Shown: positions 28,931 through 33,348 of the stretch, in pieces
Numbering within the stretch: the stretch's first letter is position 1
Layout of the letters: every line of letters starts with the position of its first letter
Assembly: GCF_020480685.1 (NCBI RefSeq)
Contig: NZ_JAJAFU010000011.1
Coordinates: forward strand, 1 to 64,000
DNA: 64,000 nt
Reading direction: 5' to 3'
Source of the DNA: Deferrivibrio essentukiensis
GTDB lineage: Bacteria > Chrysiogenota > Deferribacteres > Deferribacterales > Deferrivibrionaceae
Notes under the pieces: model-generated
The model's database searches: none
What the model saw: the letters and a program-made list of their open reading frames with translations, nothing else
What the model was told of the DNA's origin: nothing
Made by a program: the position numbers and the translations under genes

Positions 28931-30739
28931 TTAGTGATCTGCAGCTGCAGCACCGGCACCCTTTGGATAGCGAACGCTTTCTACCATTTCAGCTATATCG
29001 TGTGGAACAGGTGCAGTCATGTTTTTAACTGCAAAAGCTACTATAAAGTTAACTATTGCACCGATTGTTCCAAAAGCATTTGGCTCTATTCCGAAGAAGA
29101 AATTTTGTTTACCGCCGAAAAGCCCTAAAAATTCAGTTCCTTTGATAAAGAAGATACCTTTATGTGCAAAAACGTAGAGCATTGTAATACCAATACCTGC
29201 AATCATACCTGCGATAGCGCCTTGTCTGTTCATAGTTTTACTGAAAATTCCCATCATAAGAGCAGGAAAGATTGAGCTTGCTGCAAGACCAAAAGCTATT
29301 GCAACCGTACCTGCTGCAAAGTCAGGTGGGTTCATACCAAGATATCCTGCAACTACGATAGCACAGGCCATTGCTATTCTACCGGCCATAAGCTCACCTT
29401 TTTCAGACAGGTCTCTCATAAACATATTTTTCAAGAGGTCGTGTGAGATTGCTGACGATATAGCAAGTAGTAAACCAGCAGCTGTTGAAAGAGCAGCAGC
29501 AAGACCACCTGCAGCGACAAGTCCGATTACCCAGTTTGGAAGTTTTGCGATTTCAGGGTTTGCAAGAACCATAATATCGTTATTAACATATAATTCATTT
29601 CCTTTCCAACCTGCTGCCTCAGCTTTGGCTAAGAAATCTTTATTTTTAGATTTGTCATTGTAGTATTGAATACGGCCATCGCCATTTTTGTCATTAAATT
29701 TTAACAACCCTGTAACTTCCCAGCGCTGCATCCATTTTGGGCGCTCTTCAAATTTGATACTTGCTTCAGGTGCAAATACGTCACCACCTTTAAGTACTGC
29801 CTTGTTAACTGTTGCATGAAGATTTAATCTTGCCATAGCAGCAACTGAAGGGGCTGTAGTATAAACGATAGCGATGAATACAAGCGCCCAACCAGCTGAG
29901 CTTCTTGCATCTTTTACCTTTGGCACTGTAAAAAATCTAATAATAACGTGTGGAAGACCTGCTGTACCTATCATCAGTGATAATGTGTAAACAAACATAT
30001 TAAGTTTGCTTAATCTCGGAGTTGCGATATATGAAGCAAAACCAAGATCTTTTACAATGTGGTCAAGTTTTTCAAGGAGATACATGTCAGAACCTTGAAA
30101 GCCTGAGCTAAGACCAAATTGAGGAATAGGGTTACCTGTCAAATGTAAAGATATGAAAATTGCCGGAATAGTGTAAGCTAATGTTAAAACACAATACTGA
30201 GCAACCTGAGTATAAGTAATACCTTTCATTCCGCCAAAAACAGCATATACAAAAACTATAGCCATACCGATTAAAACACCAAGATTGTTGGAAACTCCCA
30301 AGAATCTTGAAAATGCAACACCAACACCGGTCATCTGACCAATAATGTAAGTAGTTGAAGCTATAAGAAGACATATAACAGCAACTATTGCCGCGCCGTC
30401 AGAATAATATCTTGTCTTAAAAAATTCAGGCACGGTATATTTACCAAACTTTCTTAAATAAGGAGCGAGTAAAAGAGCAAGTAAAACGTAACCGCCTGTC
30501 CAACCAAGCAAGAATACTGCACCGCCGTACCCCATGAAAGCGATAAGACCTGCCATAGATATGAAAGAGGCTGCTGACATCCAGTCTGCACCGGTTGCCA
30601 TACCGTTAAGTATTGGGTGAACTCCACCGCCTGCTACATAAAACTCTTTAGTGCTGCCTGCTCTTGACCAGATAGCAATACCGATGTAAAGTGCAAATGT
30701 TAAACCGACAATTATATACGTTGTAAGTTGTAAACTCAT
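28931..30739 (-). CDS. actP: Cation:acetate symporter (SSS family, VC_2705-type)
   Basis: Sodium:solute symporter of 602 residues with about 13 hydrophobic spans, partner of the DUF4212 protein encoded just upstream. Seen: MATGADWMSAASFISMAGLI near 48-67 and LGWTGGYVLLALLLAPYLRKFGKYTVPEFF near 78-107, typical of ActP-like carriers; Na+-site Ser/Thr region near TTAPSVAAMARL. A hydrophilic insert around residues 330-385 contains DKNGDGRIQYYN, an EF-hand-like loop. Such inserts occur in this subfamily. Probably imports acetate or a related short-chain acid. Operon partner with a 12-base gap. Confidence 0.9.
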   Translation of the reverse strand: MSLQLTTYIIVGLTFALYIGIAIWSRAGSTKEFYVAGGGVHPILNGMATGADWMSAASFISMAGLIAFMGYGGAVFLLGWTGGYVLLALLLAPYLRKFGKYTVPEFFKTRYYSDGAAIVAVICLLIASTTYIIGQMTGVGVAFSRFLGVSNNLGVLIGMAIVFVYAVFGGMKGITYTQVAQYCVLTLAYTIPAIFISLHLTGNPIPQFGLSSGFQGSDMYLLEKLDHIVKDLGFASYIATPRLSKLNMFVYTLSLMIGTAGLPHVIIRFFTVPKVKDARSSAGWALVFIAIVYTTAPSVAAMARLNLHATVNKAVLKGGDVFAPEASIKFEERPKWMQRWEVTGLLKFNDKNGDGRIQYYNDKSKNKDFLAKAEAAGWKGNELYVNNDIMVLANPEIAKLPNWVIGLVAAGGLAAALSTAAGLLLAISSAISHDLLKNMFMRDLSEKGELMAGRIAMACAIVVAGYLGMNPPDFAAGTVAIAFGLAASSIFPALMMGIFSKTMNRQGAIAGMIAGIGITMLYVFAHKGIFFIKGTEFLGLFGGKQNFFFGIEPNAFGTIGAIVNFIVAFAVKNMTAPVPHDIAEMVESVRYPKGAGAAAADH

Positions 30740-30751
30740 ATTGTCCCCTCC

Positions 30752-31012
30752 TTAATCTTCTTCTACGTCGAATTCTTTGTCAATTTTTCCAATAAGTTTT
30801 GCGTAGATAAAAATCAGTGCTACGAAAACATAAATTGAGCCTTGATGAGCAAACCAAAATCCAAGAGGGGTACCGCCTAACTTAATATTGTTCAGCGGTT
30901 CAACAAAAAGGATAGTTAAAACATATCCAAATATAAACCAGATGATTAAAATGTTTCGAATTAGACCTAAGTTTTTTTTCCAGTAGGCTTCGAGCCTTTC
31001 CTTATCGACCAT
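30752..31012 (-). CDS. DUF4212 small subunit of the SSS acetate symporter
   Basis: 86-residue membrane protein with two hydrophobic segments (about 18-38 and 58-78). The family pattern is LEAYWKKNLGLIRNILIIWFIFGY... plus GFWFAHQGSIYVFV near 51-64. DUF4212 proteins are obligate neighbours of VC_2705-type SSS carriers and probably form part of the transporter. It is the first gene of the operon, behind a long leader that may contain a structured RNA. Ribosome site GAGAGGTG at 31018-31025. Confidence 0.9.
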   Translation of the reverse strand: MVDKERLEAYWKKNLGLIRNILIIWFIFGYVLTILFVEPLNNIKLGGTPLGFWFAHQGSIYVFVALIFIYAKLIGKIDKEFDVEED

Positions 31013-31033
31013 AAAAACACCTCTCTAAAAATT

Positions 31034-31112
31034 ATTAAAAAAACAAACAAGTTACCTTAAAGCACCTGCCGACCTATTTGTTTTATCACCTCCTTACTTT
31101 TTGCTTCCAAGG
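31034..31112 (-). ncRNA. Candidate structured leader RNA upstream of the DUF4212-actP operon
   Basis: On the minus strand a TATAAT box at 31124-31119 predicts a transcript with a leader of about 100 bases. In it, AAAACAAA (31084-31077) can pair with TTTGTTTT (31047-31040), closing a purine-rich loop containing GGCAGGTGC and TTAAGGTAAC, and a T run follows. Upstream lies a full-length anti-16S match AAGGAGGTGAT (31096-31086 region) with no start codon at usable distance. The arrangement resembles a small transcription-controlling riboswitch before a sodium-coupled carrier, but I cannot match it to a known family from memory with certainty. Confidence 0.3.
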
Positions 31113-31118
31113 TGAAAA

Positions 31119-31124
31119 ATTATA
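31119..31124 (-). promoter_or_regulatory. -10 box of the DUF4212-actP operon
   Basis: Perfect TATAAT on the minus strand, without a good -35 partner at 17 bases, hinting at activator control. Confidence 0.4.
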
Positions 31125-31216
31125 TTTTAAACCCCCTGAGTTGTTTTATTAATATAATAATGTTTTATTGCTGTCAATAATTAAATTTTAATAAAATTGT
31201 AGTTTAGTAAACATAA

Positions 31217-31245
31217 AGTATACAGTGTACTGTATACAGTATACT
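31217..31245. promoter_or_regulatory. Palindromic operator-like repeat between actP operon and ACS-like gene
   Basis: Contains TATACAGT-GT-ACTGTATA (31219-31236) and the overlapping perfect palindrome ACTGTATACAGT (31229-31240), so GTATACAGT occurs twice as a direct repeat 14 bases apart, flanked by AGTATAC and GTATACT ends. It lies about 93 bases upstream of the symporter -10 box and about 168 bases before the ACS-like gene's -35 box. Confidence 0.55.
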
Positions 31246-31388
31246 AAAGTGAGTAACATATTGTTATAATAGTATTTTTTTTAGTATTTTTTCAATACAT
31301 TGTTATATAAATAGCTAAATAAAAAAATTAAAAGTATAACATTTTTTTATTATAATTTTGATTAATTTTAATTATGAAAATTTTTCTG

Positions 31389-31418
31389 TTGTTTTTTTAG
31401 CCTATGTGCTATTATAAA
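31389..31418 (+). promoter_or_regulatory. Probable promoter of the ACS-like gene
   Basis: TTGTTT (31389-31394), 18 bases, TATAAA (31413-31418). Transcription would start near 31425, before both candidate start codons. Confidence 0.4.
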
Positions 31419-31473
31419 TATGAATGATTAATACATTATGTTGCATCTGATAATTTCAAAAGAGGTATACGGT

Positions 31474-33348
31474 ATGATTTATGAAAGCATAACTAAGGCA
31501 AACAAAAACTATAAAAGAGATTTCTTACAACCGGAAGAGATTCAAGAATTAATGGAAAAGCCTTACATGGAAGTCGCTGACTATGTTGGTAAGAATTTTT
31601 TAGAGTGGATAGAGCCTTATAGAGAGGTGTTTGAATATACTAAGGTTCCAAGATATCAGTTTTTTAAGGGTGGAAAGTTTAATCCTTTTTATAATGTTAT
31701 TGAAAAACATTTAAATACTAAAAATAAAAATAAGGCAGCTATTATTTGGAGAGGGTCTGATTATACAGAGAAAATATATACATATCAATCTCTTTCATTT
31801 GAGGCATCTAAACTTGCATACGCATTTAAAAAACTTGGAGTAAAAAAAGGGGATAAAGTTTTAATATACATTCCGAATATTCCAGAGGCTATTATTGTTA
31901 TGCTTGCTTGCGTGAGAATAGGTGCAATACACGCTTTTTTTCATTTCAGTTATTCAGCCGATGCACTTGCTGAAAGGATAGATGACTGCAGAGCGAGCCT
32001 AATAGTAACAGCTAATTATAGCCTAACAGGCAATGAACTCGATATTAAAACTAAGGTCGATGCGGCGTTGAAAAAGTCTGAGCATCAGCCAAAACATGTG
32101 GTGGTTGTAGAGCGAATTCCAAAAAAGGTTCATATGAAGCCGTTGAGGGATATTTGGTATCATGATTTATTGAGTGATACTGACTTTAAGGAAGCTGTCA
32201 ACCTGGAATCGACTATTTTAAGTTTTGATGACCCATTATTTATTATGATTACTACCACTCATTTTCCTGAGCCAAAAGGATTAGTTTATAGTGCTGCAGG
32301 ATTTTTAGGCTGGGCTCACTACACATTTAAATTAATATTTGATCCTAAAGATGGTGATACTATTTGGAATACTACTGATATTGCATGGATGAATAGCCAC
32401 AATTATAAAATATACGGGCCATTAATGGCAGGTGCTACTTCAGTTATGTTTGAGGATTCGATTCAGATGCAAAATGCCAGACGTTTTTATGGTATTGTAG
32501 AAAGGTACAATATTAACAAGTGCTATATGTCTCCAAGAATTATTAAAGCACTCATGAATGCAGATATGAAAAAAAAGGTTTTTGAGCGTGTAGATAGTCT
32601 TGAGCTTTTTTTCCTCGGTGGCGAACCTATAGAAGAGGATGTGCTTTACTGGTTGTATAGAAAACTTGGTAAAGATAAGCTCCCGGTTTTGAATATTTAT
32701 TCAGTGACAGAGCTTGGCTCAGCAGTTGCAGCCCAATTGCCGGGTTTTTCAAAAGTTAAAAAAGATTCTGTAGGGCAGCCAATCCCCGGAGTAGACCTTG
32801 CAATTTATGACAGTATTACTAAAACGAAAATTAAATACCAAAATGAGAAAGGTTTGGTGTCTATAGAAAAACCTTTAATGTCTATGTGTACAAGTTTATG
32901 CCATGGAGAAGAATTATTTTACAAGACATTTTGGAAATATTTTGATGAAAAATATGTCTTTAGGGTAGGGGATGCAGGATGTTTTGATGAAGAAAGTCAT
33001 TTTTATCTGTCAGGAAGGGTTGATGATATTGTTCATGTTGCGGGGAAAAGAATAAACCTTCAGCAGATAGAAGAGACAATAAATAAGCATAAATTAATAA
33101 AAGAATCTGCAATAATAATATTAAACGATGAAAAGAAGGGTGACTCTTTGATAGCCTTTTGTGTTTTGAAAAAAAATGTTGATGAAAGTAACTATAGCCT
33201 GATTATTGATGAAATAAATGAAGTTATTATTGAGGAGTTGGGAGAGCCGGTTTTACCACAGTATATTAAATTTGTTAGAGTATTGCCTAAGGGTGCAGAC
33301 GGTGTAGTTTTAAGGGATTTATTAAAAGAGATTGCCATGCAGATGTAA
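31474..33348 (+). CDS. Acetyl-CoA synthetase-like protein with degenerate catalytic motifs (probable pseudoenzyme)
   Basis: 624 residues from ATG 31474, which has AGAGGT upstream; an ATG at 31438 lacks a ribosome site. Clear ACS relationship: FFHFSYSADALAERIDD near 156-172 and TTDIAWMNSHNYKIYGPL near 300-317 align to the ACS motifs. Yet the phosphate loop normally read as YTSGSTGKPKG is TTHFPEPKG (261-269), the acetate-pocket Trp region (YWQTETG in ACS) is YSVTELG (409-415) with Ser for Trp, and the C-terminal PKTRSGK catalytic Lys is replaced: LPKGADGVVLRD has Val at 611. The core SGRVDDIVHVAGKRIN (513-528) is kept. It probably cannot adenylate acetate and may be a sensor, regulator or an enzyme with a different reaction. 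Divergent to the acetate symporter operon. Confidence 0.85.
   Translation: MIYESITKANKNYKRDFLQPEEIQELMEKPYMEVADYVGKNFLEWIEPYREVFEYTKVPRYQFFKGGKFNPFYNVIEKHLNTKNKNKAAIIWRGSDYTEKIYTYQSLSFEASKLAYAFKKLGVKKGDKVLIYIPNIPEAIIVMLACVRIGAIHAFFHFSYSADALAERIDDCRASLIVTANYSLTGNELDIKTKVDAALKKSEHQPKHVVVVERIPKKVHMKPLRDIWYHDLLSDTDFKEAVNLESTILSFDDPLFIMITTTHFPEPKGLVYSAAGFLGWAHYTFKLIFDPKDGDTIWNTTDIAWMNSHNYKIYGPLMAGATSVMFEDSIQMQNARRFYGIVERYNINKCYMSPRIIKALMNADMKKKVFERVDSLELFFLGGEPIEEDVLYWLYRKLGKDKLPVLNIYSVTELGSAVAAQLPGFSKVKKDSVGQPIPGVDLAIYDSITKTKIKYQNEKGLVSIEKPLMSMCTSLCHGEELFYKTFWKYFDEKYVFRVGDAGCFDEESHFYLSGRVDDIVHVAGKRINLQQIEETINKHKLIKESAIIILNDEKKGDSLIAFCVLKKNVDESNYSLIIDEINEVIIEELGEPVLPQYIKFVRVLPKGADGVVLRDLLKEIAMQM

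Follow-up and report, generated by a model that had tools for sequence, protein, structure and literature searches.

A conserved, putatively non-initiating Shine-Dalgarno sequence in the leader of a DUF4212-actP symporter operon of Deferribacterales and Desulfuromonadia

The window analysed here, a 64,000-nucleotide stretch of DNA from Deferrivibrio essentukiensis, carries on its minus strand the genes of a DUF4212 small membrane subunit (86 aa, a 258-nt gene, 30752-31012; Pfam PF13937, E 2.5e-31) and of an SSF-family, actP-like sodium/solute symporter (602 aa, 28931-30739; PF00474, E 4.1e-53), and Pfam agrees in this respect with the earlier note, which had placed such a pair downstream of an unusual leader. 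A hypothetical protein and a cNMP-binding/CBS/DUF294 protein are encoded together with these two genes on the same strand. On the plus strand, a divergent AMP-binding acyl-CoA synthetase-like gene (31438-33348) starts at 31438 or slightly downstream. The AMP-binding loop of its product, ITTTHFPEPKGLV, looks degenerate when set beside the usual TSGTTGKPKG-type motif.

The region common to the divergent genes contains a tandem GTATAC palindrome, GTATACTGTATACAGTACACTGTATAC (31218-31244), which is likely to be the operator of a regulator, and GTATAC sites are found upstream in 12 of the 16 Deferribacterales leaders that were aligned. A promoter is predicted on the minus strand at 31149-31177 (TTGACA-17-TATTAA, with the spacer motif TAAAACA), and 26 of its 29 columns are identical between two species of the genus (L001 and L003). 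The 16 aligned leaders share at this position a TTGAC or TTATC box and a TATTAT-like box, with AAAAC or GAACA in the spacer that separates them; the conservation of the spacer motif TAAAACA throughout the order is unusual. Since these conserved boxes align upstream, transcription is predicted to start near 31142, ahead of the whole element described below, which would give a 5' leader of about 130 nt (31013-31142, minus strand) between the predicted start and the DUF4212 start codon.

Within this leader, and on the same strand, the most prominent element is an orphan Shine-Dalgarno sequence, AAGGAGGTGAT (31085-31095), which is complementary to the tail of the 16S rRNA, lies 73-83 nt ahead of the DUF4212 start codon and has no usable start codon behind it. 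It is followed by an AU-rich stem, AAAACAAA (31077-31084) and TTTGTTTT (31040-31047), which together with its loop spans 31040-31084 and encloses the loop sequence GGTCGGCAGGTGC (31062-31074), by a run of seven T residues (31037-31043), the like of which is also present in the f1, f3 and f8 family leaders, and finally by the real Shine-Dalgarno sequence of the DUF4212 gene, GAGAGGTG (31018-31025). In the predicted leader fold, a TCACCTT upstream (31109-31115) is able to pair with the orphan site. The observation from which the analysis set out stood in part: the stem halves, the loop sequence, the T run and the anti-16S match all lie where the earlier note had placed them, on the minus strand, whereas the stem folds no better than shuffled sequences.

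The orphan site forms a predicted 16S-tail duplex of -17.6 kcal/mol, as compared to -10.3 kcal/mol for the real Shine-Dalgarno sequence, and none of 200 shuffles was as good; these energies assume for the window genome the same 16S tail that was checked in one relative (G011). The 2.36 Mb assembly contains a single copy of AAGGAGGTGAT and two of its reversed control pattern, with about one copy estimated by chance, and the single genomic copy is by itself not remarkable. What makes the match significant is that it is conserved and keeps a fixed distance to the gene. A related form, AAGGAGGTG, has ten copies in the assembly as against fourteen of its reversed control, therefore such sequences are not favoured genome-wide. 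One AAGGAGGTG copy lies in a unit of a CRISPR-like array elsewhere in the genome (L122, 1217-1838, contig C16, near 2919), which consists of nine CCCTTCAAGTCAGGTCAATGATTCCAAT copies spaced by 73-76 nt. Between the two species of the genus (L001 and L003) the orphan site is identical in 11 of 11 positions, the real Shine-Dalgarno region in 13 of 15, the A-rich stretch with the loop in 24 of 42, the segment from the predicted start to the orphan site in 18 of 46 and the far-upstream stretch in 76 of 137.

The DUF4212 gene is present in 23 of 50 genomes of the phylum, 20 of them in Deferribacterales. The count for this order is made up of the 16 leaders that have a promoter of their own; four leaders of family f2 were left out because there the gene closely follows another gene and has no such leader. 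When positions -125 to -28 from the start codon were searched, the best 16S-tail match was found at -67 to -89 in all 16. Because the leaders share common descent, neither this count nor those given below consist of independent observations. In families f1, f3 and f8 the duplex reaches -17.6 to -20.3 kcal/mol and 0 of 200 shuffles were as good in each of the seven leaders. The nine f6 leaders range from -9.8 to -15.2 kcal/mol; between 3 and 59 of 200 shuffles equal them, and taken singly their sites are weak. Across the Deferribacterales and Desulfuromonadia leaders, pairing with the 16S rRNA is maintained through two registers (GAAAGGAGG and AAGGAGGTG) and through changes that G-U pairs tolerate (e.g., GGAGGTGG and GGGGGTGAC); it is the pairing with rRNA that is conserved. 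One f8 leader (L011, 2718-2772) contains a second, hairpin-like upstream site, AGAAAGGAGGTGGG...CCCACCT.

The same arrangement recurs in a second phylum. Of the 70 Desulfuromonadia loci sampled (30 + 40), 64 were counted, near-duplicates such as L152 and L153 included, and six were dropped because their start could not be located or was at an edge (L170, L182, L185, L198, L207 and L217). In 50 of these 64 leaders the site reaches -15 kcal/mol or lower, in 60 it reaches -12 kcal/mol or lower, and for 58 of the 64 at most 5 of 100 shuffles were as good. The sites fall in two main registers, AAGGAGGTGGT at about -71 to -80 and GAAAGGAGG at about -101 to -138. The alignments A2 and A3 were picked by the presence of the site, and its conservation within them is not evidence; the counts over the 64 leaders were not selected in that manner. 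A start codon 3-12 nt behind the core was found in 2 of the 16 Deferribacterales leaders and 14 of the 64 Desulfuromonadia leaders, which is fewer than the 38% or so expected by chance on a rough estimate; ATG, GTG and TTG were all sought at this distance in the window leader, and none was found. On these comparisons the conservation of the orphan site is well supported.

Baseline searches bear on how far the site is tied to this operon. In 400 kb of a neighbouring species (G001), a single leader out of 107 reached -11.5 kcal/mol, and this was the actP leader itself; an earlier pass, which added the window to this sample and required genes of at least 300 nt, found no site as low as -13.5 kcal/mol among 122 leaders, but that filter left out the 258-nt DUF4212 gene and hence the actP leader. 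In the baseline of a further genome (G113), 3 of 130 leaders lay at or below -15 kcal/mol, and the actP leader itself was not recovered in that genome. Across 80 DUF4212 loci from other groups an orphan Shine-Dalgarno sequence is nearly absent, with a median of -6.7 and three loci that reach -14 or lower, two of them in Desulfuromonadales (L054 and L063) and one in Gammaproteobacteria (L042); in the order of L063, the DUF4212 gene is present in 93 of 136 genomes. By these counts the orphan site is specific to the DUF4212-actP operon, and the leader element is best described, from its sequence, as a conserved, putatively non-initiating Shine-Dalgarno leader. The suggestion in the earlier note of a ribosome-trapping leader with an unused anti-16S match holds up to this extent, namely as an anatomical description of a site that is conserved, operon-specific and devoid of a usable start codon.

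The reading that is tentatively preferred, and that may well be right, is that the site acts in a manner similar to the STAB-SD sequences of Bacillus, and that a non-initiating 30S subunit shields the transporter mRNA. The leader would be transcribed from the predicted promoter, and a 30S subunit would bind the orphan site by pairing of its 16S tail but would not initiate translation there. The bound subunit would then block 5'-to-3' degradation by RNase J, as at the Bacillus sites, and the shielded transporter mRNA would be long-lived and abundant. RNase J-like proteins are encoded in 10 of 10 genomes, in eight of them with scores over the curated cut-off, and the own genome has a TIGR00649 match of 419.5 bits (cut-off 400). 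Against this reading stand the weakness of the single f6 sites, the start codons behind the site in some relatives (L209, L212, L214, L215 and family f10), the absence of the leader from family f2 and the predicted accessibility of the orphan site, which in 12 Deferribacterales and 60 Desulfuromonadia leaders (mean unpaired values of 0.32 and 0.44, respectively) was no greater than that of other G-rich stretches; in the window the site can pair with TCACCTT. A further reading, which we regard as a rather doubtful possibility, is that the leaders form a dedicated class in which the non-initiating 30S subunit is itself regulatory and couples acetate-transporter output to free 30S subunits or RNase J. 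This would amount to an undescribed class of cis-regulatory RNA, linked to a single gene family and shared by two anaerobic phyla, to which the Desulfuromonadia add hairpins and a U-rich stretch. Literature searches returned no paper on the DUF4212-actP leader, and none for the term 'DUF4212'.

Alternatively, the orphan site could serve as a standby or loading site, where the 30S subunit docks before it moves to the real Shine-Dalgarno sequence, in which case initiation and not mRNA stability would be raised. In all seven f1, f3 and f8 leaders the orphan site exceeds the real one in strength, and an AU-rich stretch separates the two, as would suit such a transfer; however, the distance ranges over some 67-140 nt and hairpins intervene in part of the Desulfuromonadia. 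On balance a standby function is unlikely.

It is distinctly unlikely that the orphan site serves to initiate a short leader peptide, either one that begins with a non-standard start codon or one whose upstream reading frame has decayed in most lineages. Four Desulfuromonadia leaders (L209, 462-585; L212, 464-586; L214, 384-514; L215, 414-533) have a GTG 5 nt behind the core that opens a reading frame of 12 codons, and the products, translated by eye, are similar peptides of the MAQNNVYQGPGT type, which are perhaps leader peptides. Three family f10 leaders of the window's own phylum (L021-L023), which were read but stand outside the counts, have AAGGAGGTG-like sites followed by open reading frames of 15-21 codons, also translated by eye and located far from DUF4212. 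Against this, no start codon stands at a usable distance in 14 of the 16 Deferribacterales leaders, that of the window included, or in 50 of the 64 Desulfuromonadia leaders, and indels between L001 and L003 leave no reading frame conserved. A usable start codon together with a conserved frame, which would mark a leader peptide, was not found in the window.

A ligand-sensing riboswitch or attenuator, responding to sodium or acetate and using the orphan site as part of its expression platform, is improbable, and the more specific proposal of the earlier note, a ligand-controlled RNA of the Na+-I (DUF1646) type, is not supported. The Rfam search that it had called for gave nothing above the gathering threshold for the window and, for 30700-31500 up to E = 10, only unrelated matches at chance level; in the leaders of relatives it detected no family, the single match being a tRNA in L009. 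The stem is not set apart as a signal by its stability, because folding of 31034-31112 gives z = -0.89 with 36 of 200 shuffles as good, and that of the longer leader z = -1.31 with 20 of 200. Covariation among orthologous leaders had also been proposed as a check, and a consensus structure sought across the order in five Deferribacterales leaders contained 0 consensus pairs. Within the genus, a related AU-rich stem is kept in two species, and in 3 of its 12 pairs both partners differ, which is a hint in favour of a structured RNA, drawn from two sequences and a U-rich alignment, and no proof. The loop is kept only at this level, where GGTC(G)GGCAGGTGC within the loop stretch is also shared by L001 and L003, and the sequences leave room for a genus-level role of the loop. 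Pairing of TCACCTT with AAGGAGGTGA, considered as a switch that sequesters the orphan site, was rejected, as it is present in L001 and L002 only.

Hairpins in one group of Desulfuromonadia speak for a structured, ligand-sensing RNA. A covariance model built from 16 leaders of the GAAAGGAGG-register type matches 42 of 134 genomes, one match apiece, 15 of the 42 having been used in its construction, and 41 of the matches (G109 included) lie ahead of DUF4212, the exception in G168 being marginal and located elsewhere. The two hairpins of this group show 13 compensatory cells versus 5.7 in shuffles, and 1 of 500 shuffles was as high, with relatedness uncontrolled. However, in the other hairpin group (group A) covariation does not exceed that of shuffles, and the score of the window leader against the model is low (10.8 bits, E 0.59) and comes almost entirely from the two Shine-Dalgarno sequences. 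An aptamer supported by covariation was not found among the five orthologous Deferribacterales leaders, and the hint within the genus is weak. Purine-rich leaders such as these can mislead riboswitch scans.

Binding of CsrA to the overlapping GGA motif is highly improbable. Most sites do contain GGA and CsrA was found in 18 of the 21 phylum genomes searched, the own genome included, but it is not present wherever the site is conserved, being undetected in G016, G011 and G004 (99% complete), whose sites are strong (-20.3, -17.6 and -17.6) and for which this explanation is rejected if CsrA is truly absent there, and L009 and L020 retain the 16S pairing without GGA.

Returning to mRNA stabilisation by a non-initiating 30S subunit, this preferred reading would, if true, extend such stabilisation to other phyla that possess RNase J, with Deferribacterota and Desulfuromonadia as examples. 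According to two reports, Geobacter sulfurreducens has three such acetate symporters and transcribes them strongly under acetate limitation (PMC7894505; PMC13194489). Geobacter relatives are workable, and the idea is testable there.

Among the known systems, leaders under leader-peptide control similarly contain a good ribosome-binding site, and a start codon follows it in a minority of the relatives, although not at a usable distance in the window leader. The Na+-I (DUF1646) riboswitch likewise precedes a sodium-coupled carrier, but the window leader lacks the match to the Rfam covariance model that would identify this class, even up to E = 10. CsrA-regulated leaders share a GGA-containing site, whereas here strong sites persist in three genomes without detected CsrA. 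The closest parallel is the STAB-SD of Bacillus thuringiensis cry3A. STAB-SD is described as a Shine-Dalgarno-like sequence that does not start translation and binds 16S rRNA, where the 30S subunit blocks RNase J1 (PMC4113751), and in cry3A it is located near -129 (PMC4113751; PMC3997798). Two features expected of such a site are present here, a Shine-Dalgarno-like sequence in the 5' leader complementary to the 16S tail (31085-31095) and an RNase J-like gene in the same organism, and the putatively non-initiating sequence similarly stands about 70-140 nt before the gene. The two systems differ in that non-initiating stabilisers of this kind are placed in Gram-positives by a review (PMC4113751), while the present sites belong to Deferribacterota and Desulfuromonadia, where stabilisation is inferred, are tied to one transporter operon and, in Desulfuromonadia, are accompanied by hairpins.
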